From a virus: DNA of 22,564 nt. Numbering within the stretch: the first letter of the stretch is position 1; each line of letters opens with the position of its first letter. The stretch is taken from positions 1-22,564 of the IMG/VR virus record IMGVR_UViG_3300043410_001133; one strand, 5' to 3'. The position numbers were made by a program, and so were the translations under genes. This document shows positions 2,174 to 17,634 of the stretch, in pieces. Below the pieces are notes generated by a model. It saw only the letters and a program-made list of their open reading frames with translations. It was not told where the DNA came from and ran no database searches.

Positions 2174-2794
2174 ATGAAAAGTCTTCATGATTATATTGCA
2201 GAGCGAAATTCACCATATTCGTTCCGTGTCAAAATCGTCAAACAAAACCCAAAAGAAGTGATGGAAGAAATTAAACGTGCTTTAGATTCGTATGAATTGG
2301 TATCTGTCACTGACCCAAAAAGTCTCCCAGTAATGGAACATCGTGAGTTTCCAAAATGGGGACCATGTGAGTGCTGGCAGTTTGAAGCCACTGTTTCTTA
2401 CCCAACTACTGCAGTTCAAATTACACAATTACTTCGTGAACGTACTGGTATGTTAGCGGATTATGTTTGTGTATATACAAAAGAACAAGCAGATGATAAT
2501 GATGCATTTGAATCATATGGCAAAGATCATGAAGGTTCACTCCTATTAGATGGTGAATTAAAAGATGTTGCTGGCGCACAAGAATTAGTTGGTGAAAAGC
2601 GTATGGGCGGATTGTTAAAAGAACTTGAAGAACAGATGCCTGTTATGAAAGGTTATACGGATTCTAAGTTAACATCAAAACCAGCAGAAAAAACTAAAGC
2701 AGCACAAACAACAAATCAGCTACCACAGGGAACAAAAAGTCCAGTTGGTTCAAACCAAAACAAAATTACCGATATGCGTAAAGGAAAAAAATAA
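2174..2794 (+). CDS. Conserved phage protein with prohead-targeting-like N-terminus, 206 aa
   Basis: No enzymatic family is recognised. The first ten residues, MKSLHDYIAE, closely resemble the capsid-targeting peptide of T4 internal head proteins (MKTYQEFIAE), ending at I8-A9-E10 where the prohead protease gp21 would cut. The body (residues 15-115) looks like a compact alpha/beta domain with YSFRVKIVKQNP, a Trp/Cys-containing strand WGPCECWQFEATVSYP and VCVYTKEQAD. After about residue 150 it becomes a Lys/Thr/Gln-rich disordered tail. An AGGA site lies 10 nt before the ATG, and the stop overlaps the next start (TAATG). An internal head or core role is inferred from the N-terminus; a non-cleaved virion protein is the alternative. 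Confidence 0.6.
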   Translation: MKSLHDYIAERNSPYSFRVKIVKQNPKEVMEEIKRALDSYELVSVTDPKSLPVMEHREFPKWGPCECWQFEATVSYPTTAVQITQLLRERTGMLADYVCVYTKEQADDNDAFESYGKDHEGSLLLDGELKDVAGAQELVGEKRMGGLLKELEEQMPVMKGYTDSKLTSKPAEKTKAAQTTNQLPQGTKSPVGSNQNKITDMRKGKK

Positions 2795-3447
2795 TGAGTA
2801 ACAATATCTATGACATTCTTAAAAAATTAAGTGGACTAGAAAATCCACAACAGAAAAAATCGGTAATTTCCGAAAGTAAAAAAATGTGCAACGAATGTGG
2901 CATGTATGAAAGTAAGTGCTCTTGTGGAGATAAAAAAGATGAAAGCAAGAAGAAAGATAAGGTTAAAGAAGGCGCTATTGCTGAAGCAGTTGCAAAAGTT
3001 GAAGCAAAATTAATGGAAAAATGGGGGAAAGCCGATGAAGATATGCTATCTCCAAAGCAAAAGAAAATTGCCAAACTATCTCCTCCACCAGACGAAATTG
3101 ATGCTGGCGATTTAGCCGCATTGCGTAAAGGTAAAAAAACTAATGAAGGTGAAATGACTCCAAAGCAAAAGAAATTTGCTGCATTGGCTGAACCAAAAGA
3201 TAAAATCACTTATGCTGATAAAATTGCTGGCGCTACGAAAAAAGTCAAAGAAGGTTTTGAAGATTTAGAAAAGTACATGAAAGATAAAGAAGGCAAAACT
3301 ACTCATGGCAAAAAAACTAAAACCAAAACTGGTCTAAAACATGAGCGTGACTACGACAAAGAAGATAATGAAAAAGAAACTGGCGAAGAGAAAAAAGGTC
3401 GTGGTCGTCCAAAAAAAGATAAGTTTAATAAAAAAGATAAAGATTAA
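2794..3447 (+). CDS. Lys-rich protein with Cys cluster and AT-hook, candidate DNA-binding virion protein
   Basis: This 217-aa product is extremely rich in Lys and Glu. Residues 5-15 (IYDILKKLSGL) carry the Leu-Ser-Gly-Leu motif shared with neighbours, followed by VISE|S at 24-28, a good match to the T4 prohead protease site. Residues 32-44 hold a Cys cluster, C-x2-C-x6-C-x-C, that could bind zinc. Two diverged repeats follow: SPKQKKIAKLS (86-96) and TPKQKKFAALA (122-132). The C-terminus has KKGRGRPKKDK (201-210), a classical AT-hook core (GRP flanked by basic residues) that binds the minor groove of AT-rich DNA. I infer a DNA-binding protein, perhaps packaged in the head. The family is unknown to me. 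It overlaps the preceding stop by one base. Confidence 0.65.
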   Translation: MSNNIYDILKKLSGLENPQQKKSVISESKKMCNECGMYESKCSCGDKKDESKKKDKVKEGAIAEAVAKVEAKLMEKWGKADEDMLSPKQKKIAKLSPPPDEIDAGDLAALRKGKKTNEGEMTPKQKKFAALAEPKDKITYADKIAGATKKVKEGFEDLEKYMKDKEGKTTHGKKTKTKTGLKHERDYDKEDNEKETGEEKKGRGRPKKDKFNKKDKD

Positions 3448-3449
3448 AA

Positions 3450-6400
3450 ATGAGGTCTAAGGATATAGTTCCACCTAAACAACATCCTGTTCAAGAAGAT
3501 TGGCAGGATGTTAAAGATTTTGGAAGAGAAGTTGGATCTGGTGTTGTAGATATTGGTAAAGGAGCAGTTGACCTTGCCGTTGCAGCAGGAAAAGACTTTG
3601 TTGATCCCGAATCTTATAAACGAGATTGGGAAGCAATTAAACGTGGAGCAAAGTTTGCTAAAGATGATCCTGTAGGAGCAGCAAAATATGCTGCACGATC
3701 TACTGATGATTTTGGTCGTGCAATGGCTAATCAAGCTACATTTGGTGGTGCTGATTACGCAGAAGCATTTGGACGCAAATACATGTATGGCGATAGTAAA
3801 CTTGATAAACATGTTTGGGACAAATATCAATCACAACAAAAAGCCGCACATGGAGATAAATTTAAACCAGAACCATGGACTGGTAGTTATGACCAATATA
3901 AAAAAGTACAAGACATTTGGAGTGCAGAAGCAGAAGAACGCAGTCCAAATGCAACTGCGATGGGAGATTTTGGTGGGGCAACTTTAAGTGTTCCATTCAC
4001 TGGTGGTGCTAGAGCAGTACTTCCATTAGTAGCAAAAGGAACAGAAAAATTAGCAAAAATTCCTGGAGTAGGAAAAGCGTTAAAAAAAGTTACAGATATA
4101 GGTGCAGCAACCTTGGGTGGTGTCGCTGCAGAGAAAGGGACAGGAAGAGTAGTGAGAAAATACGATCCAACAAATCCATATATTGGAGAGCCACAGTACA
4201 ACCAAGAACAAGTGCCGTTGCCAGAAGCACGAGCACCACGAGGACCTAGACCTTCTGTGCCACATACAACTCCACATGGAGTTACTGTAGATTTAAATAC
4301 TAAACCACCAAGCTTTAGAGGTTCTGGTAGAAAATGGAATGCACTATCTAATGCTGACAGACAAGCAGCGTGGAATGCCGAACACGCAGCAAATCCACCA
4401 CCAGGAAGTACAACACCTGGTACCACGGGATCAGGAGCAGAAACTAAAGCATCAGAATTAGCAGATAAGTGGAGAAGATTTTATCACGGCACTACTGACC
4501 CAGCCGTGATTGCAGATATTAAAGCCAAAGCAAAAGGAGCAGAAAAACCAGGAGTATTTAAACAGGCATTGGCCAAAGCTCCTTATACTACAGCCGTTGG
4601 TGGCACAATAGCGGCAGGTACGTTGGGGTCTGGATTATACAATTGGAAAAATGATCCAACAAATCAATCAATACCATTTCATATTGCAAAGGCTGCAACA
4701 GACCCTTTAAAAGGAGCGTGGACTGGATTAGGTGAACCAGGTAAAGATGTTGGTACAGCAATTGGTAACTGGATAGATAAAAAACTTGGAAAAACTACTG
4801 GCAATACTACCACTGGTGGCACTGGTGGTAATCAATCTGGTGGTAACCAATCTGGTGGTGGTAATCAAACCGACGCAGATGATGATGGATTGGGTGGTAG
4901 AAATTTAAGAAGTGGTCCAGAATTAGGAGAGGTTCCTACTGTACCACCAAATGCAAGCCCACAAAGAAATGAATCTTTTAATCATCGTAATTCATTAGTT
5001 AACCAATATATAGAATCATTGGACACAATATTATCCAATTCTCATGAGTTATTGGAATTTGGACCTATTGGTGAAGGTAAAAATCCCGAACAAGAACCAA
5101 ATTACGACGAACTTATTAAAAATCCTAATGTTCGTATAATGTTAGATTTGATAGGTCGTGCAGAAGGTGCAGATTATGATACGGTAGTTGGTGGTGGTAA
5201 ATTCAAAGATTTTAGTTCACATCCTAAAATTCCAGTTCGTATCAAAACTAAAGGAAAAAGTATATTAAGTAATGCTGCTGGCAAATATCAGATTATGGGA
5301 TTCAATTGGGAACCATACGCAAAAAGACTGGGACTTAAAGATTTTAGTCCAGAGTCACAGGATAAAATTGCAGTCGCAATGCTTAAAGATCGTGGAGCAC
5401 TTAACAGTGTACTTAAAGGCGATTTTGTTAATGCCATTAAAAAAACAAAAAGTCAATGGGCTAGTTTACCATCATCAGATATAATACAGGGTTACGGACC
5501 AAGATCTTGGAAATGGGTAGAAAAAAATCTTGCAGATTTGGGAAATAAAACTCTAGCTGCAGCGACATTATCTTCACCTGCACAAGCAGCAGATGAAATC
5601 CCTTCTAAAACACCATTAAAAACGACAGAGCCAGGTTATTACACTGTTGGTGATAGTCATGGCGTTGGTATTGCAACATATAACAAAGACAAAAATTGGC
5701 ATAATTTATCTACAACAGGCTCCAGTGCTTTTTCACCAGACCATTTACAGAATATAAACAAAATACCTAAAGGTAGTGTGGTAGTTATTAGTATGGGTGC
5801 CAATGATTTGGGTGGCGCAAAAATACCAAAAATTGTTAATCAAGTAAATGCCACTGTTGCTGCTGCAAAAGAACGTGGACTTAAAGTTGTATATGTTCTT
5901 CCAACTGCAACAACAAATCCAAAATCTCAACAGAAACGTGAAGAACTAAGACAAGCATTACTAAAGGGGCTAGATTCAAGAGACATCGTAGATTTGGGGA
6001 CAGCACCTAGTAGCAAAGAAATAAAAGGTGGTGATGGAGTACATTTAGGACCTAAAGGTTATGCATCAATCGGGTCCAACATTGTAGGTATGTTATCTCC
6101 TGATACTTCTGCTTCAAGTAAACCTCCAATTAAACCTGAGAAAAAAGCAACAGATAGTAGTACTAATAAAAAACTTGATAATAGAAAATCTGATGCACCT
6201 AATTTGGTTCCACAATCTGTAAAAAGAGATTCGGATTTGTCAACCGTTGCTCAAGGTGTAAAACCTATAACAGTTTCAACTAAACCAGCAAAACCTGCAG
6301 ATAAATCCAATTCTGATAATGCTAGTGCAACGGCTGTAGACCAACCTCCAGTTAAAGTTCAAAAAACTAAATCAAGTGCTGCTGATATTGAAGCAAAGCG

Positions 6401-6845
6401 TCGTAAGCAAGACATGGCAATATCAAATGCTGATATTATAGATGCATCTAATAAAGCCAGAGCAGCACAGATGGCAAAACTTACTGGAACAGATACATCA
6501 ACCTTATCTGGTGATGAATTAGATCGTGCAAAATATGGTGGATCATTTAAAGGTAAAGCATATGATCCAGATGAGACAATTATCAAGCCAGATGAAATAG
6601 AAAAGGTATTGCAAAAACATTATGCAGAAAAACCAGCACAAAGTGTTGATGTTCCTGTTGATATTAAACCAGTTGTTAAAGAACCAGAGCCAGATGAGTC
6701 ACCTTTGATTAAAAAATGGGATACTGGTATTGAAGCATTGACTGGAAAAAAACGACTAACACCAAAAGATTTGAACACAGTTCAAGTACCAGAATCAATA
6801 AATACTGAACTTACAGACATTTTAAGATTGGCAGGAAGAAAATAA
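3450..6845 (+). CDS. Giant virion-type protein with lysozyme/transglycosylase and SGNH hydrolase domains, 1131 aa
   Basis: Residues 1-400 are helical and Gly/Ala-rich, with stretches able to interact with membranes (TLSVPFTGGARAVLPLVA; YTTAVGGTIAAGTLGSGLY). A Gly/Asn/Gln linker covers about 455-475. Residues about 550-690 resemble the lambda R/P1-type peptidoglycan transglycosylase: LDLIGRAEGADYD with likely catalytic Glu572, SNAAGKYQIM, and DKIAVAMLKDRGAL. Residues 730-890 form an SGNH/GDSL hydrolase: GDSHG with nucleophile Ser736, GANDL (783-787) and DGVH with Asp862 and His865. The C-terminal 240 residues are disordered and end in TDILRLAGRK, the motif shared with neighbours. The two enzymatic domains should cut glycan strands and remove ester groups, plausibly O-acetyl groups that block lysozyme. 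The size and context fit a virion-associated entry enzyme more than a holin-dependent endolysin, but that is inference. Confidence 0.8.
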   Translation: MRSKDIVPPKQHPVQEDWQDVKDFGREVGSGVVDIGKGAVDLAVAAGKDFVDPESYKRDWEAIKRGAKFAKDDPVGAAKYAARSTDDFGRAMANQATFGGADYAEAFGRKYMYGDSKLDKHVWDKYQSQQKAAHGDKFKPEPWTGSYDQYKKVQDIWSAEAEERSPNATAMGDFGGATLSVPFTGGARAVLPLVAKGTEKLAKIPGVGKALKKVTDIGAATLGGVAAEKGTGRVVRKYDPTNPYIGEPQYNQEQVPLPEARAPRGPRPSVPHTTPHGVTVDLNTKPPSFRGSGRKWNALSNADRQAAWNAEHAANPPPGSTTPGTTGSGAETKASELADKWRRFYHGTTDPAVIADIKAKAKGAEKPGVFKQALAKAPYTTAVGGTIAAGTLGSGLYNWKNDPTNQSIPFHIAKAATDPLKGAWTGLGEPGKDVGTAIGNWIDKKLGKTTGNTTTGGTGGNQSGGNQSGGGNQTDADDDGLGGRNLRSGPELGEVPTVPPNASPQRNESFNHRNSLVNQYIESLDTILSNSHELLEFGPIGEGKNPEQEPNYDELIKNPNVRIMLDLIGRAEGADYDTVVGGGKFKDFSSHPKIPVRIKTKGKSILSNAAGKYQIMGFNWEPYAKRLGLKDFSPESQDKIAVAMLKDRGALNSVLKGDFVNAIKKTKSQWASLPSSDIIQGYGPRSWKWVEKNLADLGNKTLAAATLSSPAQAADEIPSKTPLKTTEPGYYTVGDSHGVGIATYNKDKNWHNLSTTGSSAFSPDHLQNINKIPKGSVVVISMGANDLGGAKIPKIVNQVNATVAAAKERGLKVVYVLPTATTNPKSQQKREELRQALLKGLDSRDIVDLGTAPSSKEIKGGDGVHLGPKGYASIGSNIVGMLSPDTSASSKPPIKPEKKATDSSTNKKLDNRKSDAPNLVPQSVKRDSDLSTVAQGVKPITVSTKPAKPADKSNSDNASATAVDQPPVKVQKTKSSAADIEAKRRKQDMAISNADIIDASNKARAAQMAKLTGTDTSTLSGDELDRAKYGGSFKGKAYDPDETIIKPDEIEKVLQKHYAEKPAQSVDVPVDIKPVVKEPEPDESPLIKKWDTGIEALTGKKRLTPKDLNTVQVPESINTELTDILRLAGRK
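4812..4869 (+). repeat. Coding Gly/Asn/Gln tandem linker repeat
   Basis: Imperfect repeats of a GGTGGTAATCAATCT-type unit encode GGNQSGGNQSGGGNQ. They form a flexible linker in the 1131-aa protein, between the helical N-terminal half and the enzymatic half. Length may vary between relatives by slippage. Confidence 0.75.
6797..6804 (+). promoter_or_regulatory. T4 late-type promoter candidate before the 6847 gene
   Basis: AATAAATA lies within the 3' end of the upstream coding region and matches the late consensus at seven of eight positions. A start near 6811 would leave a leader carrying AGGAAG at 6833-6838, placed 8 nt before the ATG at 6847. Confidence 0.4.
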
Positions 6846-6846
6846 T

Positions 6847-9606
6847 ATGGAATTTAAAAAACTATTAAAAATATTTGAGGCACCAGCAGCCCCAGTTGGG
6901 TCAGAACTTGCACAAACAAGTGGTGGTCAGTTCATGAACAAAGCCGATAGATTAAATCAGGCTAAAGTTGATGCAGCATTGGGACCTGGTTATAAGGCTG
7001 GTAGAGCAGATACTAATTTAGCATTAGCAAAAAAATTCAGACAACCACAACCATCTGGTCAAGCAGCATATGCAGATACTATATCAGATAGAGCAGCTAA
7101 AGGCGACGTAAATGTTCTTGGCACAGGAAAAAAACAACCAGCAGTTAATGATCCAACAAGTGGAGACTATACAGTAAATGCTGACCCAAATGCAGCAAAA
7201 GTTCCATTTACTCCAAGAAATACAACTGGATATAGTGGAGTTCAACAACATCAATATGTAGATGGTAAACCAAATCCAAATTATGATTCTGGTGAAAAAC
7301 CTGGTACTAGTAGTGAAGTCCCCGTACCAGCAAATATTGGAAATATGAGTCCAGAAGATTCTACCAGAGAATTAAATGCTGCACGTGTTGCAGCAGGACA
7401 GAAACCAGTTGGTGGCACTGTGGGTTCTGGCACTAACACAACTTGGACTGATAGTAGTGGAAAACCTATCACAACTGATAGCCCAGAAGAAATTGCAAGA
7501 AGAGGTCCTATGGGAATCCGTCTTCCAGATCCAGCAGAGCAACGTGCTCAAGGTGAGAAAAATTGGAACGCAATTAAATCTGGATGGAACTCTATGTTTG
7601 GAGGGAATAAATCTTCTTCAACTCCAACACCTCCACCAGCACCTGATTCAGCAGCGCCACCAGTAGACTCATCAAAACCATCAGTTCAAGGTTCAAGCGC
7701 AGGATATGCACCTGGAAAATTTTCTGAAGATGCATTAGAAGAAGAAATGGAAAAAGAATTAGAAGAAATGATGCGTTTGAGTGGATTGTCTTTAAATGAA
7801 AAGGCTGTCAGCACATCACAACAGCAAATGGCAGGTGCTGAACTCGAAAGACGCAGAGAAGGTAAAAAGAAATCTAAAAAAGGTATGGGTTCTATGAGCA
7901 CATCTGAATTGAAAAAATTTGCTGGAACCAAACACAAAGGCTTACCAAAGCATGTTACTGAAAGTACAGAACTAATGGATGAAACTCGTGAAACCCTAAA
8001 GCACATTGCAAATCGTTTTAAGTATGAAACTAAAATGTTCATGCAAAGCGGTCATATGGATCAAGATTTGTTCCATTCATTGTATGATTATTATAAAGAA
8101 AAAGGCGATATGCCATATAGCGTTGCCAAAGGTGATGCACAACCATGGGTTGAAAGCCGTTTTTACCAAGATATGGGGAGTGGTATGAGTGAATCAATGG
8201 GTAGTAATGTTGCTCCTGCTGGTAATACATTGTCGGAGTTAGCCCGTTTAGCTGGACTAACACACAAAGAACATGAAATTACTGAATGGGGTGATTCTCC
8301 ATTGAATAAAATTGGACAGCCACCACAGCCACAAAGTCCTGGTGCAGCCCCATCATTTGCTCCACGTGAGCGTGAGCGTGTAGTTAGTCCTAAAGTAGAC
8401 AAATTTGATAAAGACAAAGAACAGGCAGAAAAAACACGTCGTTGGATAGTGGACAAAGAAAGCCCAAAGGCAAATGATTTTGGACGCAATATTGGCAAGG
8501 CATTATCAGAACCTGTTGCAGCAGTCAAGAGTGCATGGCATGGAGCACAGGATGCATGGGATCACACAATGGGCAATGATACTGCACCTGATCCTAAACC
8601 CCCTGTTAGCGTTATGAAACCAAATCAGTGGAAGGGTGATAAAGATAATCCTGCATTAAAAGAAAATGATGAATTAAATCAAATGCGCCGCATTGCTGGT
8701 TTAAAAGAATGTGGTGATATGGATGTAAATCAACCTGATTCAATGAATGTTAGTACTAATATGAGCAGCGAGGGTACCAAGAATGTTACTATTTCTGCAC
8801 AAGGTGACAAAGCAGATGAATTACTTGGCATGTTAAAACTTGCTGGTATGCAACATCATCAAGAAGAAGAACCAGTCGCTATTATTTCTACTAATGAAGA
8901 AGAAATGGTTGATGAATCATCAAGTAAGCGTTTAATAAAGAAAATTGGTGATGCATCTGCTGGTGCTAAAATCTATAAAGACATGGAATGGAACGAGTTT
9001 ATCGTTAAATTCTTTAAAGATGGTCGCATGCTTCCAGAAGAAACATGGCATCATACTGATGATTTGCAAGATGCCGTTGATACAGCAACTTCAGAAGTTA
9101 ATAGAATGGGTTCACTTGATGAAGAATATGCCAATGAGCCAGAAGAAGAATATGAAACCATTTCTACCATCACTCGCCAAGGTAATGATTTAAATCGTGA
9201 GAAAAAGCAATTTTCGGATAGACCAAAACTTGGTGATAATCCAATGGCAGAAAGTTTAATTTCTTTAGATGAAGAATTAGAAGAAATGCTTGAAAGCATT
9301 AAAGTTAAAGAAGATAGTGGCGCAGGTGGAGTCTCTGCCGAACAACCATATCGTGATGAAAAAACAGGAAAAATGGTTTACCCACCAAAGGGTGCGACTA
9401 TGCCTCCACCTGATAGTGAATTCCCACCAGGCGATCCTAGAAATTCAGCACCTTTAAAGAAGAAACCATCTATGTCTGCTCCAAGGGCACCAAGCGCACC
9501 AAGTATACCAAAAGACTCATCAAGACCTATAATTCCAAAAGGAATGAATATTGAACCTGATGATGGTATTTTAAATCTACCAATGAAACAACGAGGTGGC
9601 AAGTAA
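6847..9606 (+). CDS. Large disordered phage protein with targeting-like N-terminus and repeated LAGL motifs, 919 aa
   Basis: The N-terminus MEFKKLLKIFE|APAAP fits a prohead-targeting helix ending at I9-F10-E11 before Ala, matching the T4 protease rule. The first 290 residues are Pro/Gly/Ser/Asn-rich and probably disordered. Four copies of the shared motif follow: MMRLSGL (308-314), LARLAGL (465-471), MRRIAGL (613-619) and MLKLAGM (662-668). Between them lie SMSTSELKKFAGTKHKGLP (about 350-370), which resembles the small DUF3008 segment of bacterial proteins, and a compact helical stretch FKYETKMFM...LYDYYKEKGDMPYSV. Another folded segment with WNEFIVKFFKDGRML lies near 715-735. No active site is recognised. 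AGGAAG precedes the start by 8 nt. It is probably a structural or scaffold-like virion protein; function unknown. Confidence 0.65.
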   Translation: MEFKKLLKIFEAPAAPVGSELAQTSGGQFMNKADRLNQAKVDAALGPGYKAGRADTNLALAKKFRQPQPSGQAAYADTISDRAAKGDVNVLGTGKKQPAVNDPTSGDYTVNADPNAAKVPFTPRNTTGYSGVQQHQYVDGKPNPNYDSGEKPGTSSEVPVPANIGNMSPEDSTRELNAARVAAGQKPVGGTVGSGTNTTWTDSSGKPITTDSPEEIARRGPMGIRLPDPAEQRAQGEKNWNAIKSGWNSMFGGNKSSSTPTPPPAPDSAAPPVDSSKPSVQGSSAGYAPGKFSEDALEEEMEKELEEMMRLSGLSLNEKAVSTSQQQMAGAELERRREGKKKSKKGMGSMSTSELKKFAGTKHKGLPKHVTESTELMDETRETLKHIANRFKYETKMFMQSGHMDQDLFHSLYDYYKEKGDMPYSVAKGDAQPWVESRFYQDMGSGMSESMGSNVAPAGNTLSELARLAGLTHKEHEITEWGDSPLNKIGQPPQPQSPGAAPSFAPRERERVVSPKVDKFDKDKEQAEKTRRWIVDKESPKANDFGRNIGKALSEPVAAVKSAWHGAQDAWDHTMGNDTAPDPKPPVSVMKPNQWKGDKDNPALKENDELNQMRRIAGLKECGDMDVNQPDSMNVSTNMSSEGTKNVTISAQGDKADELLGMLKLAGMQHHQEEEPVAIISTNEEEMVDESSSKRLIKKIGDASAGAKIYKDMEWNEFIVKFFKDGRMLPEETWHHTDDLQDAVDTATSEVNRMGSLDEEYANEPEEEYETISTITRQGNDLNREKKQFSDRPKLGDNPMAESLISLDEELEEMLESIKVKEDSGAGGVSAEQPYRDEKTGKMVYPPKGATMPPPDSEFPPGDPRNSAPLKKKPSMSAPRAPSAPSIPKDSSRPIIPKGMNIEPDDGILNLPMKQRGGK

Positions 9607-9818
9607 TGTCAATTCATTTTGAACAATACAATAGTGATGGTGATGAAGATCAAGCAAACTATTGTCGTGAATTAGAAATGAAAATTCATTACTTAATAAG
9701 TATGTTGCAAAAGGCAGGTGTTTTATTAGATGCAAATGGAAATAGTGTCAATTCATTACCAGATTCTGTAATGGATGATGCTGATGAAATTCAAAATAGT
9801 ATAAAGGGTAATTGGTAA
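9606..9818 (+). CDS. Small acidic hypothetical protein, 70 aa
   Basis: The ATG overlaps the previous stop (TAATG) and its own stop overlaps the next ATG in the same way, so it sits in a translationally coupled chain. The product is acidic, with a predicted central helix (CRELEMKIHYLISMLQKAGVLLD) that could form a coiled coil, and a single Cys. I do not recognise a family. It may be a small assembly partner of the large neighbours. Confidence 0.6.
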   Translation: MSIHFEQYNSDGDEDQANYCRELEMKIHYLISMLQKAGVLLDANGNSVNSLPDSVMDDADEIQNSIKGNW

Positions 9819-10522
9819 TGAAAAGTTTTAAAGAATATTTAACTGAACAAGAGTTAATAGAAGAATCCCCAACAACTGGTGATTATTTTAATATTGAGAT
9901 TGCACGTGAAGAAATAGTTCTTGAAACTCACGTCATTGATGTTCTTGAAGATGGTGTGTTAATTGAAGCAGATGAAACTATGCTTAAAATTTTATCACAT
10001 GTTGGGTATCTAACTGAAGATTCTAATATGCCAGTTGCACATGATAGTACCAGTCCTATTAATGGTAGTAATTTAGAAGAAGATGATGATTATCCTGGTT
10101 CACAGGGCACTTGGATGCATGGTGGATACAAGATTCGTTATAATCCAGAAACATTTACTTTAACCGTTCAAGGCAAAAATCAAGAACGTGGACATCGTTG
10201 GGGTGGAAAGCCAACAAAACAAGCATATCGTATTGCAGTTCAACAATTGATTGACAAGCTAGAAGACGAAACAGAACTAGATGAAGCAAAATATCAAGGA
10301 CGTGAAGTTCCTTTAGGTAAACCTATGGCTGGAGATGTTAAAAAATCTAAAGTTTATGTACGCAATCCACAAGGAAATGTTGTCAAAGTAAATTTTGGCG
10401 ACAAAAAAATGAAGATTAAGAAATCTAATCCAAAACGTCGTAAATCATTTAGAGCAAGACATAATTGTGCAAATCCTGGTCCACGTCACAAAGCACGTTA
10501 CTGGTCTTGTAGGGCTTGGTGA
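9818..10522 (+). CDS. Conserved phage protein with targeting-like N-terminus and basic Cys/Trp-rich C-terminus, 234 aa
   Basis: I place the start at ATG 9818 rather than the TTG two codons upstream, because this gives the usual TAATG overlap and a targeting-like peptide, MKSFKEYLTE, ending at L8-T9-E10. Residues 10-85 are acidic. Residues about 95-150 form a domain with GTWMHGGYKIRYNPETFTL and KQAYRIAVQQLIDKL. The last 60 residues are strongly basic (KMKIKKSNPKRRKSFRARH) and end with HNCANPGPRHKARYWSCRAW. From memory this ending is widespread in uncharacterised proteins of T4-like aquatic phages. The basic region and paired Cys suggest nucleic acid or metal binding. No catalytic motif is known to me. 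Confidence 0.65.
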   Translation: MKSFKEYLTEQELIEESPTTGDYFNIEIAREEIVLETHVIDVLEDGVLIEADETMLKILSHVGYLTEDSNMPVAHDSTSPINGSNLEEDDDYPGSQGTWMHGGYKIRYNPETFTLTVQGKNQERGHRWGGKPTKQAYRIAVQQLIDKLEDETELDEAKYQGREVPLGKPMAGDVKKSKVYVRNPQGNVVKVNFGDKKMKIKKSNPKRRKSFRARHNCANPGPRHKARYWSCRAW

Positions 10523-10998
10523 TGAGTGATCCAAGATTCTTTAGAAAGTACTTAGATATTCTTGATGAACAGCCATTGCCCACTGGCGTAAATCAAGCAA
10601 CAGTAAACGTAGGGGATAACACAACTGCAACTGTTGATACAGCAGCAAAGACCATTGGGGTGCAAACTAAAGTTGGTGATAACCTAAATATGCAAGCCAC
10701 GCAAGACTTAACACACAATGCTGGACAGGTATCGGCTGATTACCAAATGTCTCCAAACACGAGTGTCGGTGCAACACATACACAGGCAGGTTACAAAGGA
10801 CAAATGACTCCTACCAACCAAATTCGTGCTTCTTCAAATGTGCCTAATACTGGCAAAGTTGATATTGAGCATAATCAAGGTGCCATGTTACAAGGTGCTG
10901 GAAAAAATGCTAAACCTGGTGATAGCAGCCAAACAACAATGAGAGTCACAAATCCGCAAGGGCAAACTACCACTTACGGTACAAACAGAAATTTATAG
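10522..10998 (+). CDS. Thr/Gln/Asn-rich beta-type hypothetical protein, 158 aa
   Basis: ATG 10522 overlaps the preceding TGA (TGATG) and is preferred over the in-frame TTG and GTG just before it. The first 17 residues (FFRKYLDILDE|Q at 6-17) again look like an amphipathic targeting helix ending at L14-D15-E16. The rest alternates polar and small hydrophobic residues (VNVGDNTTATVDTAAKTIGV), suggesting repeated beta strands like those of fibre or porin-like proteins. No Cys, signal peptide or catalytic motif is present. The function is unknown; a virion protein is likely from context. Confidence 0.55.
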   Translation: MSDPRFFRKYLDILDEQPLPTGVNQATVNVGDNTTATVDTAAKTIGVQTKVGDNLNMQATQDLTHNAGQVSADYQMSPNTSVGATHTQAGYKGQMTPTNQIRASSNVPNTGKVDIEHNQGAMLQGAGKNAKPGDSSQTTMRVTNPQGQTTTYGTNRNL

Positions 10999-11007
10999 GA
11001 AAAATCA

Positions 11008-11814
11008 ATGAAAAAATTATTTGCCGTTCTATTATTAGCAGCACCTTCTCTGAGTTTTGCTTGGACACAAACAGCACCACTACCAGTAGAAAAGTGTCAA
11101 GTGCATAATCCATATGGATTTCCACAGGCTAGTAAAGCAGTAACACCAATTTGTCGTCGTGCTTATTACGTAGGGTACGATGCTGCTGCTAAAATTCCTA
11201 ATCATGTAACTTATACATTAACACCCGCAAACGCATTGGGTTGCTGGCCACGTACAAATGCTTTTGTTGCTGATCAAAGTGTACCTAACGGACCTCGTCC
11301 TGAAGATTATGCTGGAACAGGATATGATAAGGGTCATGCTGCTCCAGACGGTGACTTGTCATGGGATGAACAAGTAGAATATGAAAGTTTCTTAATGACT
11401 AACATGTATCCACAACTTGGTGGATTAAATCGTGGCATTTGGAAATTATTAGAAACATCAGTGCGTGGTTGGGCAGTACAAACTAATCAAACATATAATA
11501 TCTATGTTGGCGGTATATACAACACAGCAACAGACAAGAAAATTGGTAATGGTGTTGTAGTACCAACAGGATTCTACAAGATTGTTGTTAATCAAAATAC
11601 AAAACAAATGGCTGGTTGGTATTTCAAACACGAAGGTGGACAAGGAAACGACTTAACTAAAGTACGTGCCAGTATCGCTGCTATTCAACAAAAAGCAGGA
11701 GTAACATTCGCATTTCCACAGGGAGCAGTTGAGTTGCCTGTAGGACAAGAATGGCCAGTTGATTTCGGAGCGTTAACAAATGCAAAAAGAGCCAAGTGCA
11801 AATCAGCCGACTGA
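11008..11814 (+). CDS. Secreted DNA/RNA non-specific endonuclease (NucA/EndA family)
   Basis: The first 18 residues are a clear signal peptide: KK, a hydrophobic core FAVLLLAAPSLSF, and a predicted cleavage after SFA. The mature part carries the beta-beta-alpha-metal nuclease motif DKGHAAP (107-113), equivalent to DRGH in Serratia nuclease, with His110 as general base. It also has TNMYPQ (131-136) and LNRGIWKLLE (140-149), where Asn141 would bind magnesium and Glu149 is conserved. Cysteines at 30, 49, 79 and near the C-terminus could form disulfides in an oxidising compartment. AGGA (10997-11000) gives a good ribosome-binding site. It should degrade DNA and RNA outside the cytoplasm. It may act on competing incoming DNA, extracellular DNA or host DNA after lysis; that choice is inference. 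Confidence 0.88.
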   Translation: MKKLFAVLLLAAPSLSFAWTQTAPLPVEKCQVHNPYGFPQASKAVTPICRRAYYVGYDAAAKIPNHVTYTLTPANALGCWPRTNAFVADQSVPNGPRPEDYAGTGYDKGHAAPDGDLSWDEQVEYESFLMTNMYPQLGGLNRGIWKLLETSVRGWAVQTNQTYNIYVGGIYNTATDKKIGNGVVVPTGFYKIVVNQNTKQMAGWYFKHEGGQGNDLTKVRASIAAIQQKAGVTFAFPQGAVELPVGQEWPVDFGALTNAKRAKCKSAD

Positions 11815-11850
11815 TGATGATAGACCAGTAGTACCCTATGGTGAACACTG

Positions 11851-12561
11851 ATGAAGAGGTTTTGGCTGCGTGAAGAGATTCCAATCGCAGATGAATTGGA
11901 GTCTCTAATTCCTGCACTTAGGGAAGAGTTTATTAAAGCACATCCTGAAATTCTTGAAAATAAAATATACGCTCCCCCAATCACAGACATTAGCAAACAT
12001 GGTATAAATCATATTGATGATGATATTATACAGAATAAAAAAGAACTTCCATGGAAAAGTGATTTTTTAAAGTATGTAGATAAAAAAATAAATCACTATA
12101 ATATATTATATGAAGATTCTGAAGTAAAAGCACGATATCCCACTGCAACAGCCCTTACAAAAAAATACGGAAATGACTGTTATTCAAGTGGATATAGTAT
12201 TTTAGATTTGAAATCACAAATTCATCGTCATACTGACATAGAAAACAGAGATAATAAATTTATTAAAATCCATATTCCTATTATTATTCCCAAAGGGGAT
12301 GTATTTTTTGAGTGCGAGGGTTTTGAAATTGATTGGTCTTGTTTGTGGGCATTTGATAGTCAGTTAGTTCATAGTGCATATAACAATACAGATGAAGTAC
12401 GTGTTGTTTATCTTTTTGATATTAAACGATCTGCACTTGGACTACCAATCGGTGAACCGTATGATTCAGAAAGAGAAAAATCAATTCCACCATTTATTCG
12501 TGGAGCATTACCAAAGGTATATCATTCATGTCAACTATTAGACAATATAGATTTAGTGTAG
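11851..12561 (+). CDS. Aspartyl/asparaginyl beta-hydroxylase-like 2OG-Fe(II) oxygenase
   Basis: The 236-aa product has the conserved core of the AspH family, iron- and 2-oxoglutarate-dependent hydroxylases. H-R-H-T-D at 125-129 supplies the H-x-D iron ligands (His127, Asp129), IKIHIPIIIP is a core strand, and FDSQLVHSAYN holds the distal iron ligand His174. DEVRVVYLFDI contains Arg184, expected to bind 2-oxoglutarate. The N-terminal 100 residues have no recognised domain. The substrate cannot be read from sequence; protein side chains are usual for this family, but phage members are uncharacterised. The ribosome-binding site is weak. Its 3' end overlaps the next gene by 34 nt. Confidence 0.82.
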   Translation: MKRFWLREEIPIADELESLIPALREEFIKAHPEILENKIYAPPITDISKHGINHIDDDIIQNKKELPWKSDFLKYVDKKINHYNILYEDSEVKARYPTATALTKKYGNDCYSSGYSILDLKSQIHRHTDIENRDNKFIKIHIPIIIPKGDVFFECEGFEIDWSCLWAFDSQLVHSAYNNTDEVRVVYLFDIKRSALGLPIGEPYDSEREKSIPPFIRGALPKVYHSCQLLDNIDLV

Positions 12562-12824
12562 AAGATTTTGTACCACAGGGTGAACAAGGGCACGAGGATG
12601 CTGTCCTTGATCCTAATGATCCTATTCATGAAATGAAACGTCTTGCTGGTATACCAAGTCGTAATATTATGCAAGAATATAAGGGTGAACCTGGTAGCAA
12701 TATTTCGGTTACTGGAAATGAAAAGGGCGAACTCATGCGTAAACATGATATTCGCCCTGGCACTGATGAATGGTTTAAACTCTGGTTTTCTAAACCATAT
12801 CTAACTGGTGAAAAACCAATTTAA
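12528..12824 (+). CDS. Small protein with LAGL-type motif, 98 aa
   Basis: The ATG at 12528 lies inside the 3' end of the oxygenase gene in another frame; a later start at 12633 is possible but would cut into the motif. Residues 33-42, IHEMKRLAGI, match the motif repeated in the large upstream proteins and at the end of the 16207 gene. The acidic N-terminal third looks disordered. The C-terminal third, MRKHDIRPGTDEWFKLWFSK, looks like a small folded helix-turn segment. No family is recognised. The shared motif suggests it belongs to the same structural set, though it lacks a targeting-like N-terminus. Confidence 0.6.
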   Translation: MSTIRQYRFSVEDFVPQGEQGHEDAVLDPNDPIHEMKRLAGIPSRNIMQEYKGEPGSNISVTGNEKGELMRKHDIRPGTDEWFKLWFSKPYLTGEKPI

Positions 12825-13348
12825 GCAGCAGCCTTATCTCTACCTAAGTATTGATTCCACTTTGGGTCTTTAACTCTAAATGGACTATGCTTCCATGCCG
12901 CAGCCAATGCCCAATAATCTGGGCGATATGGTTTACGAATTGGTTTCATAAAACTTTTATCTGCTTTACGCCAGTTGCAGTCTTTGCAACTAGTTACACA
13001 GTTAGTCCATTCTGTTTTACCACCCTGACTTACAGGAACAACGTGGTCAATAGTCAAGTCATCAAAATCAAAAGTATCTTCACAGTATTGACATTGATAT
13101 AGATCACGTAGATACATGTTGTAACGTGTGAAGTTTACATTACGCTTGAAATTGAAATATTCTTTAGTAATGGCGACAGATGGTACATTAATTGATAGTT
13201 TTTCACTATGAATAATCCAATCTGGATAGGTTTCAATAACATGAATCCTGCCCAAATACATTAATTTGATAGCATGTTGCCAATGAATTACGCTCAAAGG
13301 TAATACCGAAATTGGGGTGTAATCTTTATTTAAAAGTAGTGTGTGCAA
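12821..13348 (-). CDS. HNH endonuclease (bacterial/phage McrA-like type)
   Basis: This is the only convincing minus-strand gene. The protein has an N-terminal LLLNKDYTPISVLP segment typical of this HNH subfamily, then C-x2-C (QCQYC), the HNH core LTIDHVVPVSQGG with Asp-His, WTNCV, and C-x2-C (SCKDC), so a zinc-stabilised HNH fold is complete. I chose TTG 13348 because it begins the conserved domain and has AGAAAG just upstream; an in-frame TTG at 13396 would add 16 residues. It is convergent with the 12528 gene (4-base overlap) and divergent from the next endonuclease. It may be a homing-type selfish endonuclease or a packaging-associated HNH protein; its position upstream of gp17 allows either. 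Confidence 0.8.
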   Translation of the reverse strand: MHTLLLNKDYTPISVLPLSVIHWQHAIKLMYLGRIHVIETYPDWIIHSEKLSINVPSVAITKEYFNFKRNVNFTRYNMYLRDLYQCQYCEDTFDFDDLTIDHVVPVSQGGKTEWTNCVTSCKDCNWRKADKSFMKPIRKPYRPDYWALAAAWKHSPFRVKDPKWNQYLGRDKAAA

Positions 13349-13395
13349 AATAAACTTTCTTGCTAAATAAGTATGATGTTTATAAAGGAACAGCA

Positions 13396-14052
13396 ATGTA
13401 TTTACAGAACAAATACACTAGATGGTATTTTAGTATAATTTCAAATGCAAAGTCAAGAATCTTGTCTGATTCCATATATACTGAAAAACATCATATTATT
13501 CCAAAAAGTATAGGGGGTGATAATTCTATTGAAAATTTAGTTAAATTATTACCAAAAGAGCATTTTATTTGTCATTTATTATTGACAAAAATGGTAGAAG
13601 GCATTAATAAAAGAAAAATGTGGTATGCATCATATATGATGATAGTTGGGATAAAGAGATACAAACCTACTTCTAGATCATATCAAATAGTTAGAAATAA
13701 TATGATTATGGCAAGTAAAGAACGTGTTGGGACTAACACTGGTAAAGTTATGTCAGAAGAACAAAAACAAAAAATTTCAAATAGGCTAAAGGGAAAAAAC
13801 AGACAACCTAAAACTGAGGAACATAAAGAAAAATTGAGAAAGCCAAAATCTGAGGAACATAAAAAGAAAATTTCAGAGACTCGCAAAGGGAAAACTTATG
13901 GGTATAAACACAGTGAAGAAACTAGACAGAAAATAGGGAAATCAAATACTGGAAAAATTGGTAAATTTTTTGGAAAAGAACACTCTGAGGAAACTAAAAA
14001 ACGTATGTCTGATGCTAGGAAACAATATTGGGAAAATAAACGCAGCACATAA
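13396..14052 (+). CDS. HNH homing endonuclease with NUMOD3 repeats
   Basis: ATG 13396 follows AAAGGA (13384-13389) at 6 nt, so I prefer it to the TTG 12 codons upstream. An N-terminal HNH-type nuclease is visible as EKHHIIPKSIGG (30-41) with His32/His33, Asn47 in ENLVKL and HFICH at 56-60. The C-terminal half is four or five repeats of the NUMOD3 DNA-binding module, for example SEEHKKKISETRKGK and HSEETRQKIGKSNTGK. This architecture is typical of free-standing and intron-borne phage homing endonucleases. No intron is evident: gp17 immediately downstream is uninterrupted. It probably inserted as a selfish gene between structural genes. Its lower-complexity, Lys-rich make-up differs from the genes around it. 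Confidence 0.85.
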   Translation: MYLQNKYTRWYFSIISNAKSRILSDSIYTEKHHIIPKSIGGDNSIENLVKLLPKEHFICHLLLTKMVEGINKRKMWYASYMMIVGIKRYKPTSRSYQIVRNNMIMASKERVGTNTGKVMSEEQKQKISNRLKGKNRQPKTEEHKEKLRKPKSEEHKKKISETRKGKTYGYKHSEETRQKIGKSNTGKIGKFFGKEHSEETKKRMSDARKQYWENKRST

Positions 14053-14060
14053 GTAATAAT
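14049..14060 (+). promoter_or_regulatory. Late-promoter-like box directly before gp17
   Basis: ATAAGTA (14049-14055) differs at one base from ATAAATA and lies 5 nt before the gp17 ATG. No Shine-Dalgarno sequence is visible. Transcription from such a box would begin at or next to the ATG. Confidence 0.3.
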
Positions 14061-15641
14061 ATGAGTAAACCATTAAATGTACCTCAGTCCATTATAAAGG
14101 CTCCGTACCAACAAGTCAACTTTTCTGAAGAGCAGATAATAGAATTTGTTAAGTGCGCTGAACCAGAACGTGGGCCACATTATTTTATGAGTAATTATTT
14201 TTATATTCAGCACCCCACAAAAGGTAAGATGCTGTATAACCCGTTTGAATATCAATCTAAACTCATAGATACTTATCATCATAACAGATTCAGTATTTCT
14301 TTAATGCCTAGACAAACAGGCAAAACAACAAGTGCGGCTGGTTACTTACTTTGGTATGCAATGTTTATACCAGATTCTACAATCCTAATTGCAGCACACA
14401 AGTACTCAGGCGCACAGGAAATCATGCAACGTGTGCGATATGCATACGAACTATGCCCAGACTGGATTCGTGCAGGTGTTACTAGTTATAATAAAGGAAG
14501 CATAGACTTTGAAAATGGTTCACGTATTGTTAGTCAAACGACAACAGAAACAACTGGACGAGGTATGTCCATCACATTGCTATATTGTGACGAGTTTGCG
14601 TTCGTTAGACCCACTATTGCCAAAGAGTTTTGGACATCCATATCACCTACACTAAGCACTGGTGGTAAAGCAATTATTACTTCAACTCCCAACTCAGATG
14701 AAGATCAATTTGCGTTTATTTGGAAACAAGCTAACAAACAAATTGATGAATATGGTAATGAACGGACTGATGGACTAGGTATTAATGGATTTCGTGCATA
14801 TCAAGCATATTGGTGGGATCATCCTGATCGTGATGAGCAATGGAAAAAAGAAGAAGTTGGTAGAATTGGAGAAGAACGTTTTAGACGTGAACATGGTTGT
14901 GAATTCTTGATTTATGATGAAACATTAATAAATTCTATTAGATTATCAGAACTAGAACCAAATGAGCCTATTGAAAGACAGGGACAAGTTAGGTGGTTTC
15001 AAAAACCCAAACGTGGAAAAACTTATGTCATTGGATTAGACCCTTCACTTGGAACTGGAGGTGATCCCGCTGCTATACAGGTATTTGAATTGCCTAGTAT
15101 GATTCAAGTAGCAGAATGGCAGCATAATACTACACCAATCCAACGTCAAATTGTTATTTTAAAAGAAGTTTGTGAATATCTTTATGATGTTTTGGGCACA
15201 CAAAATGACATTTATTATAGCGTAGAAAATAATACACTTGGTGAAGCGGCTTTAGTGGTGATTGGTGAAATAGGTGAAGAAAATATTAAAGGCATTTTCT
15301 TATCTCAACCACATGCAGTTGGACAACAAAGGCTACATAGAAAAGGTTTTACTACTACAAATAAATCAAAAATTACTGCTTGTGCTAAATTAAAAAATTT
15401 AGTTGAAAACAAGAAAATGACTATAAACAGTAAGAATTTGATTAGCGAACTCAAAACATTTGTGGCAGACGGTCCTGGCTTTGCCGCCAAACTAGGCGAA
15501 ACAGACGATTTAGTTACTGCCACATTGCTAGTTTTGCGAATGATACAGTCTATTCAAAGTTACGATGCAGATATAGATGAACGCATGAAAGATAGTGAAG
15601 AGGATTATATATCACCAATGCCATTTATTATGGTGTCTTAA
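14061..15641 (+). CDS. 17: Terminase large subunit gp17
   Basis: The 526-aa product is the ATPase-nuclease that drives DNA into the prohead. The ATPase domain has Walker A RQTGKT at 84-89 (T4-type RQxGKT) and Walker B LLYCDE with Asp177 and Glu178. The coupling motif is IITSTPN, near 205-211. The C-terminal RNase H-like nuclease domain has the expected acids: GLDPS with Asp327, SVEN with Glu389, and GETDD with Asp482/Asp483. T4 gp17 is about 610 aa; the difference is mainly a shorter N-terminal region. The frame is continuous, so no intron is present despite the adjacent homing endonuclease. It ends one base before the next gene's ATG. Confidence 0.95.
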   Translation: MSKPLNVPQSIIKAPYQQVNFSEEQIIEFVKCAEPERGPHYFMSNYFYIQHPTKGKMLYNPFEYQSKLIDTYHHNRFSISLMPRQTGKTTSAAGYLLWYAMFIPDSTILIAAHKYSGAQEIMQRVRYAYELCPDWIRAGVTSYNKGSIDFENGSRIVSQTTTETTGRGMSITLLYCDEFAFVRPTIAKEFWTSISPTLSTGGKAIITSTPNSDEDQFAFIWKQANKQIDEYGNERTDGLGINGFRAYQAYWWDHPDRDEQWKKEEVGRIGEERFRREHGCEFLIYDETLINSIRLSELEPNEPIERQGQVRWFQKPKRGKTYVIGLDPSLGTGGDPAAIQVFELPSMIQVAEWQHNTTPIQRQIVILKEVCEYLYDVLGTQNDIYYSVENNTLGEAALVVIGEIGEENIKGIFLSQPHAVGQQRLHRKGFTTTNKSKITACAKLKNLVENKKMTINSKNLISELKTFVADGPGFAAKLGETDDLVTATLLVLRMIQSIQSYDADIDERMKDSEEDYISPMPFIMVS

Positions 15642-15642
15642 C

Positions 15643-16200
15643 ATGATAATAACGCCAGTTGATGAACAAAATAATTTATTTTCTGTAACAAATATATTAC
15701 CAGATAATATTATAGATCAAATAAAACAAGAAGATTTGTTAAATTATTCATGGGAGTTACAGGAAGAGCAACATGATTGGAAACGAAGAAAACTTCTTCC
15801 TGCCTCCGACAGTCCGATATTAAAAATAGATAATATTTACATGTCTGTCATGGATCAAATTGCACAGGCACTTAATATTCAATTTAGCGTCAATCATTGT
15901 AATAGTAATTTTTGGTTAGATTATATGGGCTTTGGGTGCCCAATTCACCTAGATGGATTTGGAGAAAGGCCCAAAATAGCCATGCAAATATACCTTACTG
16001 AAACCCCCCACGAACTTGGTACTGTATTTTACCACGATACTCATGGCAAAAAATTGAGGTACAGGTGCCCTTACAAAATTAACACTGGTTATATTATGTT
16101 AAATAATGATAATCAATGGCATGGTATGACAGAAACTATACCAGAAGGCACATTTAGGCTGAGTAGTTATACATATTTTAGCCGTTTTGAACATAAATAA
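15643..16200 (+). CDS. 2OG-Fe(II) oxygenase-like protein, 185 aa
   Basis: I place the start at ATG 15643, just after the gp17 stop; an upstream in-frame ATG at 15595 would overlap gp17 by 47 nt. The double-stranded beta-helix core is visible: HLDGFG with His102-x-Asp104, then AMQIYLTE, GTVFYHD, a strand ending NTGYIMLNN, QWHGM with distal His160, and GTFRLSSYTYFS with Arg172 for 2-oxoglutarate. This matches the small phage oxygenases common in aquatic T4-like viruses. The substrate is unknown; protein, nucleobase and small-molecule substrates are all possible in this superfamily. It differs from the AspH-type enzyme upstream in motif spacing, so it is not a recent duplicate. Confidence 0.75.
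   Translation: MIITPVDEQNNLFSVTNILPDNIIDQIKQEDLLNYSWELQEEQHDWKRRKLLPASDSPILKIDNIYMSVMDQIAQALNIQFSVNHCNSNFWLDYMGFGCPIHLDGFGERPKIAMQIYLTETPHELGTVFYHDTHGKKLRYRCPYKINTGYIMLNNDNQWHGMTETIPEGTFRLSSYTYFSRFEHK
16192..16199 (+). promoter_or_regulatory. T4 late-type promoter candidate before the 16207 gene
   Basis: CATAAATA overlaps the oxygenase stop codon and matches the late consensus at seven of eight bases. The ATG is only 7 nt further on and lacks a Shine-Dalgarno sequence, so a transcript from here would be nearly leaderless. Confidence 0.4.
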
Positions 16201-16206
16201 TATACT

Positions 16207-17634
16207 ATGCGTGAAATTAACAAAATCTCTGATGAACTTTTTAACAAAATACGTAGCCGTTTCCAACATGTAAGTCTTGGGGATGAGGATGCAAAACGTA
16301 TTACTGATCCCGAAGAAGCCAAGTTTTTTGACTTTCATTATGTCAGTGAAAATGGTGACGATTTTGGTAGTGTTACAATCAGCCTTATTGACGAAGATAG
16401 TTTAAAAGTATATTTTAGTTCAAATATCACTGATGATTTAGATGATGAAGAACAGGATGAATGGTACGATTTTTTAAAGGGACTTAAAAAATTTGCCAAA
16501 AGAAATATGTTGACTTTTGATGTAAGAGATATTACACGCAGTAATTTAGATTTAAAAGATATTCGTCAGCAAACTGATTCTGATTCAACCTACGATAAAG
16601 AAGACATCGTGTCAGAAAGTAAATTATATGGAACAACACGCAGTTCGTATGCAGATGTCGGACCTCATAAGTTAATTATTAGACATCAAGATCACATTGA
16701 TCCAGAACGTCATGGATCACGTGGTAGAAAAATAAAACATATATTTGTTGAAACTCCATTAGGAGAGCGTTTCTTACTAGACCACACTAACCTACATGGT
16801 GCTCGTGCTATTGCCAATCATTTAACACACGGTGGAAAAATTGGTGATGAGGGTAGTGGAATAATAAATGAAATGGTTAAAGAAATGGCAAGTATGCGTC
16901 ATTTTGTTCGTGCTATGCGTAACCGTACATTTGAAGATACAGAAACCACTGGTATGGTTGAAGCGGCAATTCACCGCTACAACGAAGTTCGTGATCATTT
17001 AAAACGTTTCAAAGGTCGTAAAGGGCATGAAATGTTGATGGGCATGATGGGCATTCAACAAGAACCACAACAAGATGTTGACGTTGATGGATTACGTGAA
17101 CGTTTTGTTAAGAAAATTTACGATGATAGATTCAACGAAGCGTTGCCATATGTATATCGTGCTTATCAAAATAGAAAGCATTTAGAAACTGAAGGTAGTA
17201 AAGAGTTTGAATCATGGGCAAACGAAGTGACTGAAGCAACATGGGATTCTGATCATGATGATCATAACGAAGAAGATTTGCTACAACTAATAAAATCACC
17301 AATTAAATGTGGAATTGATGGAATTGATGCTATTGGAGTAATTTCTGGCATTAATTTTTTAAACACAGATAAATTAAAAAATATATTAAAACAATATTCT
17401 ATCGGGCAACCAGATGCAGACACAAGACCAATTATCGCAGCGTGGTTAGCAAAAAATGGTGAATCTGCACTTGCAAATGAGATAGTAAAAATTATACAAT
17501 CACAGAACCAGCCTGTACAAGCGCAACCACAGTCACCTCCAGTGCCCCAACAACAAATGGGCGCAACTAAAACGGACGAGCCTGTTACAAATGAAAGCAT
17601 TTTAGATATGCGTCGTTTGGCTGGATTAAAATAA
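16207..17634 (+). CDS. Conserved T4-like phage protein ending in the LAGL motif, 475 aa
   Basis: No enzymatic family is recognised, but the sequence resembles, from memory, uncharacterised proteins conserved in many aquatic T4-like phages. Residues 1-140 form a domain with FDFHYVSENG, FGSVTISLIDEDSLKVYFSS and EWYDFLKGLKKFAKRNMLTF. A second domain around 145-260 has SRGRKIKHIFVETPLGERFL, then a helical segment EMASMRHFVRAMRNRTFED. Residues 340-430 are helical. A Gln/Pro-rich linker precedes the last 12 residues, ILDMRRLAGLK, the best match to the motif repeated in the large proteins upstream. A virion or assembly role is inferred from that motif and from its position after gp17. Confidence 0.65.
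   Translation: MREINKISDELFNKIRSRFQHVSLGDEDAKRITDPEEAKFFDFHYVSENGDDFGSVTISLIDEDSLKVYFSSNITDDLDDEEQDEWYDFLKGLKKFAKRNMLTFDVRDITRSNLDLKDIRQQTDSDSTYDKEDIVSESKLYGTTRSSYADVGPHKLIIRHQDHIDPERHGSRGRKIKHIFVETPLGERFLLDHTNLHGARAIANHLTHGGKIGDEGSGIINEMVKEMASMRHFVRAMRNRTFEDTETTGMVEAAIHRYNEVRDHLKRFKGRKGHEMLMGMMGIQQEPQQDVDVDGLRERFVKKIYDDRFNEALPYVYRAYQNRKHLETEGSKEFESWANEVTEATWDSDHDDHNEEDLLQLIKSPIKCGIDGIDAIGVISGINFLNTDKLKNILKQYSIGQPDADTRPIIAAWLAKNGESALANEIVKIIQSQNQPVQAQPQSPPVPQQQMGATKTDEPVTNESILDMRRLAGLK

Follow-up and report, generated by a model that had tools for sequence, protein, structure and literature searches.

Reuse of a prohead scaffold tail as a candidate encapsulation peptide in a clade of jumbo phages

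We propose that a short peptide recurring in otherwise unrelated phage proteins has its origin in the prohead. As judged from sequence, the prohead scaffold that occupies the position of T4 gp22 has this motif as its conserved C-terminal tail, and we put the probability that this tail is reused as an encapsulation (prohead-docking) peptide, a reading in which we infer binding, packaging and cleavage alike, at roughly two in three. The window, by which we mean the whole 22.6-kb stretch of DNA that was analysed, is an entire virus contig and carries a T4-type late region (Table 1), and its terminase is most similar to those of PA5oct, a jumbo phage, and related phages, at 54.7% identity. Motif carriers besides the scaffold are mostly head-module proteins. 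The scaffold gene that belongs with the window is not on the contig and was deduced from relatives, which is why the scaffold link is invisible from the window alone.

Copies in the window and the tail of the scaffold

A sequence-only reading of the window had reported eight LAGL-type peptides in five proteins, and all eight are present. The strict pattern [ML]x[RK][LI][AS]G[LIMR] is matched seven times among the 27 window ORFs, compared with a mean of 0.02 in shuffled sequences (maximum 2, 2000 shuffles), and the eighth peptide, ILRLAGR at the C-terminus of the 1131-aa protein, is one residue off the pattern, with I in first position. The motif is C-terminal in the 475-aa and 1131-aa proteins and in the scaffold, and internal in the 919-aa and 98-aa proteins. 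The membership claimed for the 2794 gene did not hold up. Its orthologs retain MSNNIYDILKK without LSGL, reading MSNNIYDILKKMENLE, KKMQRLE and KKFNNLD, and for that reason it was dropped from the conserved set as a copy that may be degenerate or a chance match, leaving seven conserved copies and one that is unsupported.

Table 1. Positions of motif copies, N-terminal tag candidates and genes in the window
Feature	Position	Strand	Remarks
Head-closure protein gene	1198		T4-type late region
T4-CTS-like N-terminus MKSLHDYIAE/R	2174..2203	+	candidate second, N-terminal tag type; from sequence
2794-gene N-terminal peptide IYDILKKLSGL	2806..2838	+	regex match; doubtful member
1131-aa protein gene, lysozyme/GDSL-type	3450-6845		lysozyme-like and GDSL-like segments
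1131-aa protein, C-terminal motif ELTDILRLAGRK	6807..6842	+	scaffold-only PSSM 16.8
919-aa protein, copy 1 ELEEMMRLSGL, then SLNE/K	7756..7788	+	scaffold-only PSSM 19.6
919-aa protein, copy 2 TLSELARLAGL	8227..8259	+	scaffold-only PSSM 16.8
919-aa protein, copy 3 ELNQMRRIAGL, then KE/C	8671..8703	+	scaffold-only PSSM 22.3
919-aa protein, copy 4 ELLGMLKLAGM	8818..8850	+	scaffold-only PSSM 9.7; weakest of four, kept in relatives
T4-CTS-like N-terminus MKSFKEYLTE/Q	9818..9847	+	from sequence; kept in relatives
98-aa protein, copy PIHEMKRLAGI, then PSRNIMQE/Y	12621..12653	+	scaffold-only PSSM 22.5, top window match
Terminase large subunit gene	14061		T4-type late region
475-aa virion structural protein gene	16207-17634
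475-aa protein, C-terminal motif SILDMRRLAGLK	17596..17631	+	conserved in relatives; predicted helix
gp32-like protein gene	17767		T4-type late region
UvsY-like protein gene	21249		T4-type late region

The connection to the scaffold comes from complete relatives. Among the best matches of the motif profile over the complete PA5oct proteome is VEELRRLAGIK, the extreme C-terminus of gp330, a 368-aa protein encoded between the gene for the head maturation protease and that for the major capsid protein. Contigs of the window clade carry a scaffold gene at the equivalent place, ending NVFEIKRLAGLK, and a KRLAGL tail, in some cases with a K, R or N after it, was found in 80 of the 80 window-clade scaffold orthologs examined in viral contigs. 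A gp22-type gene lies between those of the gp21 protease and the gp23 capsid protein in contigs G001 and G003 as well as in PA5oct, CBB, RaK2, 121Q and Vibrio 2.275.O, and the records of 121Q and MIJ3 name the scaffold gene as scaffolding protein, with the wording "scaffolding (T4 gp22-like)" in 121Q. The tail extends, as the variant h..h...[AS]GI.K(K), to the scaffold ends of ten jumbo-phage lineages outside the window clade (PA5oct, Phosso, Atu_ph07, Vibrio 2.275.O, XaC1, CBB, RaK2, 121Q, fENko and SCTP-2), including ELRRLAGIEK in Phosso, DLKRLAGIKK in Atu_ph07, RLTKIAGIRK in Vibrio 2.275.O, EISRNAGISKNR in CBB, ELSILSGIIKK in RaK2 and ELDVLSGINKK in 121Q. A search of the PDB found no sequence relative of the scaffold. 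The motif tail is absent from the scaffolds of T2, Phi1, ValKK3, S-PM2, S-CAM7, an Ackermannvirus, CP81 and ACP17, and no reuse of the scaffold tail on other proteins was found in the ordinary T4-like phages ValKK3 and S-CAM7, which rules out a general rule that all T4-like phages reuse it.

An independent comparison uses a PSSM whose only input was the set of ten scaffold C-termini from beyond the window clade, all cargo being left out, and which was scanned over all window proteins. Its top seven window matches are seven of the eight noted copies; five matches exceed 15 bits where 0.01 would be expected (maximum 1, 2000 shuffles), and six exceed 12 bits where 0.07 would be. With a combined profile scanned over nine relative contigs (~820 kb), all matches above 14 bits, among those listed, fall in six families, namely the scaffold and the 475-, 919-, 1131-, 69/98- and 100/115-aa proteins. 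A motif equally frequent among non-structural proteins, or in shuffled sequences, the outcome that the sequence-only reading had itself named as counting against it, is therefore not what was found. Weak LAG-like matches turn up in many proteins.

Conservation in relatives and virion data

Close relatives of the 475-aa protein are encoded by 45 IMG/VR contigs, and in IMG/VR relatives the motif is kept at the same sites of the 475-, 919-, 1131- and 69/98-aa proteins. In the 475-aa family, D.PVVxE and then [DEA][LI]xx[LIM][RK].L[AS]GL are kept and the residues between and ahead of them vary, the conserved PVVxE standing immediately upstream of the motif. Relatives of the 919-aa protein have 2 to 4 copies each, those of the 1131-aa protein keep the C-terminal motif as ELxDIL[RW]LAGR.., and the 98-aa orthologs in three contigs (G001, G004 and G005) have starts that resemble MNDIEQLKVLAGIGNRAVMQE. 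A tblastn search of phages with the 919-aa protein gave no match, and with the 1131-aa protein as query no relative among viral contigs could be confirmed.

More distant relatives also carry the motif. In Phosso, the homolog of the 475-aa protein has the C-terminus HIARLRKLAGI, and the gene directly upstream of the terminase carries SLSELHRMLDLAGV. The PA5oct protein encoded at the same position as the latter, gp281, has two copies and gp249 has one, and both carry an ESI-MS/MS annotation as virion proteins. Two weaker copies are found in ENKO_241 of fENko, which is encoded near the head-completion gene and is positive by LC-MS/MS, while similar multi-copy proteins are present in CBB and Vibrio 2.275.O, and Atu_ph07 encodes small proteins with the motif at their start, one of them adjoining the terminase. 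Within PA5oct alone the statistical support for virion association is modest. Four of the six motif proteins, a set that likely includes chance matches, are MS-positive (Fisher p = 0.013), and another profile gives two of three (p = 0.09); the ORFs were mechanically called, and 3 of the 93 MS-marked PA5oct genes have no match among them.

The scaffold itself is missing, as gp330, from the ESI-MS/MS virion list of PA5oct, and that of phAPEC6 was represented by 2 peptides and 4.9% coverage compared with 74.9% for the capsid protein (PMC7247149). Both observations are what digestion of the scaffold would predict. The fENko scaffold is marked as detected by LC-MS/MS, and scaffold remnants can therefore persist in virions.

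Predicted anatomy, proposed docking and alternative readings

AlphaFold2 models of the scaffold and the 475-aa protein, from 14- and 26-sequence alignments, predict the motif to be a short isolated helix behind a disordered linker. In the scaffold, long helices are followed by a low-confidence stretch (residues 319-354) and then by an isolated helix (355-364) with the motif, and in the 475-aa protein, modelled with a low overall pLDDT of 61, a low-confidence or disordered linker (435-462) precedes an isolated helix (463-471). The residue ahead of [LIM]AG is basic in both scaffold and cargo of one lineage set (18/22 for cargo) and in neither in the enterobacterial set (0/4 for cargo), and this covariation, in which descent is ignored, suggests one common receptor.

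We therefore describe the mechanism in conditional terms. An amphipathic helix, ELxxLRRLAGL(K), that forms the tail of the gp22-type scaffold would be reused on other proteins of the jumbo-phage clade, and during head assembly the site that takes the scaffold tail would also accept the copies of this helix on the 98-, 475- and 1131-aa proteins and the four on the 919-aa protein, such that all of these are packed inside the prohead. The receptor site would most likely lie either on the capsid protein, at its inner face, or in the core lattice, and likeness to other HK97-fold heads makes the capsid protein the most likely candidate. The gp21-type prohead protease would then cut nearby [LIV]xE sites, and cleavage would both destroy the scaffold and free the cargo from its tether ahead of DNA packaging. 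The sequence-only reading had proposed a docking or sorting peptide for a partner such as the prohead core, portal or protease. Docking in the prohead survives as the best reading, while the portal gives way because the motif is the scaffold's own tail, whose binding partner, capsid protein or core, is the most likely receptor, and the protease is more likely the cutter.

Sites that such a protease might use do occur near the motif. An [LIVM]xE lies at most 14 residues downstream in 20 of the 32 internal copies, with 10.4 +/- 2.4 expected from flank shuffling and 20 reached in none of the 5000 shuffles, in a count that includes orthologs and ignores descent. Scaffolds have LTE/S or LAE/S some 25-35 residues upstream of the tail, and T4 gp21 cleaves after L/I-X-E (PMC9026906). 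Both the downstream clustering and the scaffold sites would also suit a protease exosite, in which the peptide recruits the gp21-type protease for neighbouring LxE cuts and packaging occurs by other means. We consider this unlikely, as close to the N-terminus of the major capsid protein there are LLE- and LMETA-type sites but no motif, the scaffold copy is at the extreme C-terminus and the above distance from its closest site, and several copies have no nearby site at all.

Likewise improbable, in our view, is that the helix is a core-assembly element with the scaffold coiled coil, or the helix itself, as its partner, so that the motif proteins are minor cross-linkers of the core and not cargo delivered to the host. 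The four copies of the 919-aa protein, set in low-complexity linkers, would suit a multivalent cross-linker, and gp22 and the internal proteins of T4 co-purify (PMC9026906), but the motif is not part of the coiled coil and stands past a long disordered linker, where binding to the shell surface fits equally, and the homologs stay in virions. Chance or composition, that is, an amphipathic helix pattern of a kind common in proteins that are acidic and disordered, gains something from the shortness of the motif, the weak matches elsewhere and the loss of the 2794 copy in orthologs, yet it is very improbable overall and is refuted for the conserved copies by the shuffles and ortholog conservation, with the independent scaffold profile and the near absence of the motif elsewhere in the ~820 kb also against it.

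Reuse of the scaffold tail for prohead docking would have consequences beyond the window. A peptide common to the scaffold and to co-packaged proteins would provide a direct and testable rule by which head cargo might be predicted from sequence in jumbo phages, most of whose genes lack annotation, and a scaffold-tail peptide points at a specific docking site and could act as a C-terminal packaging tag. That the 1131-aa protein is an enzyme stored in the head for delivery at infection is speculation. More tentatively still than the docking itself, the major capsid protein of Arenbergviridae-like and related jumbo phages may have an inner-face pocket for the scaffold LAG[LI] helix, with this helix repeatedly transferred to unrelated proteins as a self-releasing cargo tag. 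The unrelated carriers under such a lineage-wide code would be a muralytic enzyme, small proteins and a multi-copy core protein, each with a helix of 10-12 residues.

Comparison with known systems

A close parallel to the proposed function is the T4 capsid-targeting sequence (CTS), which is found on IPI, IPII, IPIII and Alt, brings them into the core of the prohead and is cut off by gp21 at L/I-X-E (PMC9026906, PMC9958956), although the mechanisms by which T4 core proteins are localized have been called mysterious and the structure of the core is unresolved (PMC9958956). Both are short peptides on unrelated proteins, and the two systems have homologous head proteins of the gp21 and gp23 types. 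The T4 CTS is, however, N-terminal with a cleavage site at its end, whereas the window motif is C-terminal or internal, often multi-copy, of other sequence and, unlike the CTS, of the same kind as the scaffold C-terminus. The logic is the same, and identity with a T4-type CTS is excluded by position and sequence. The window phage seems, from its protein N-termini, to use T4-CTS-type tags as well, given that MKSLHDYIAE and MKSFKEYLTE resemble the T4 CTS sequence.

Encapsulin cargo-loading peptides, with the consensus SDGSLGIGSLKRS (PMC8346489), are similarly short, conserved, mostly C-terminal and present on unrelated cargo, and they dock inside an HK97-fold shell. Encapsulin systems have neither scaffold nor maturation protease, whereas the window motif is shared with a scaffold; the motif is not of the SDGSLGIGSLKRS type and the shell gene of the relatives is that of a gp23-type capsid protein, which places it outside the encapsulins. 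The protease gp245 of SPN3US, also a giant phage, has a 64-residue C-terminal propeptide that is proposed to target it to the prohead core and is then cleaved (PMC7411985), but gp245 is a single protein and the accessible part of that report describes no shared motif. CpmB of SaPI1, in work cited in PMC12810830, vies with the native scaffold for sites on the capsid protein; it is a size-redirecting scaffold of a satellite, unlike the putative cargo tag of the window.

Searches of open-licence papers found no description of the motif or of a scaffold tail spread across further genes. In herpesviruses (scaffold/protease), lambda (Nu3/C) and P22, the scaffold binds the capsid protein through its C-terminus, and proteins attached to this C-terminus are directed into the procapsid. 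The fold of the C-terminal domain of the P22 scaffold has been described (PMC3185693). In these three systems the tail is shared through overlapping genes or engineered fusions, whereas in the window a tail of 10-12 residues is dispersed over several unrelated genes.

Possible N-terminal targeting and the 919-aa protein

Several neighbouring late genes begin with a segment that ends in xxE and resembles the N-terminal capsid-targeting sequence (CTS) of T4, which suggests that a second, N-terminal class of targeting sequence may be present. The 919-aa protein, which carries multiple copies of the LAGL motif, also has a DUF3008 domain. It shares a second element with the 100- and 115-aa motif proteins of relatives: [YF]ANEP and, after it, a conserved run of residues (GDNPM / NPADIR). 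In all of these proteins the element lies close to the LAGL motif.

Features located in the window and in relative contigs G001 and G011
Feature	Position	Residues	Remarks
Lysozyme-like segment, 1131-aa protein	3450-6845	557-686	PHROG endolysin match
GDSL/SGNH-hydrolase-like segment, 1131-aa protein	3450-6845	757-872	Pfam PF13472, score below family cut-off
CTS-like MEFKKLLKIFE	6847-6880		ends in xxE
CTS-like MKSFKEYLTE	9812-9847		ends in xxE
CTS-like MSDPRFFRKYLDILDE	10516-10570		ends in xxE
DUF3008 domain, 919-aa protein	6847-9606	320-370	Pfam PF11450, E 2.7e-07
[YF]ANEP element, 919-aa protein	6847-9606	about 760-810
[YF]ANEP element, 100/115-aa proteins	G001:10868-11170; G011:7939-8286
DNA/RNA non-specific endonuclease	11008-11814		PF01223; signal-peptide-like N-terminus; among head genes
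HNH endonuclease	12821-13396 (-)		beside terminase
Radical-SAM-like protein	18795-19958		between gp32-like and UvsX-like genes

Enzyme-like proteins and nucleases

The 1131-aa protein, with its lysozyme-like and GDSL/SGNH-hydrolase-like segments, would be a virion-type protein that is unusual in pairing two enzymes. The proteins at 11851-12561 and 15595-16200 resemble 2-oxoglutarate/Fe(II) oxygenases, and neither has a match in PHROGs. A further protein appears to be radical-SAM-like, with the N-terminal segment CNLDCSYCG. At the site of the PF01223 endonuclease some relatives (G001, G005) have a different, thermonuclease-like gene, and the HNH endonuclease, which lies on the minus strand next to the terminase, is conserved in G001, G004, and G005.

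Motif-like segments in capsid proteins, and the scaffold tails of T4-like phages

In the jumbo phage PA5oct (gp329), in relative G011 (212331-213515), and in the jumbo phage Phosso, a motif-like segment is also present within the major capsid protein. These segments (LNRLRILAGPA, LGSLRSLAGTE, and LTSLRRLPGAA) share one position in the folded part, and may represent either chance or a capsid helix that is mimicked by the scaffold tail. The scaffolds of the ordinary T4-like phages T2, ValKK3, S-PM2, and S-CAM7 (L076, L077, L075, and L079) have a short hydrophobic tail at or near the end, after a linker, and such tails (VYAKVASRF, MAAYLKAARTNR, and MAAYLHAMARW) are unlike LAGL but are possibly the same site as the LAGL tail with another sequence.
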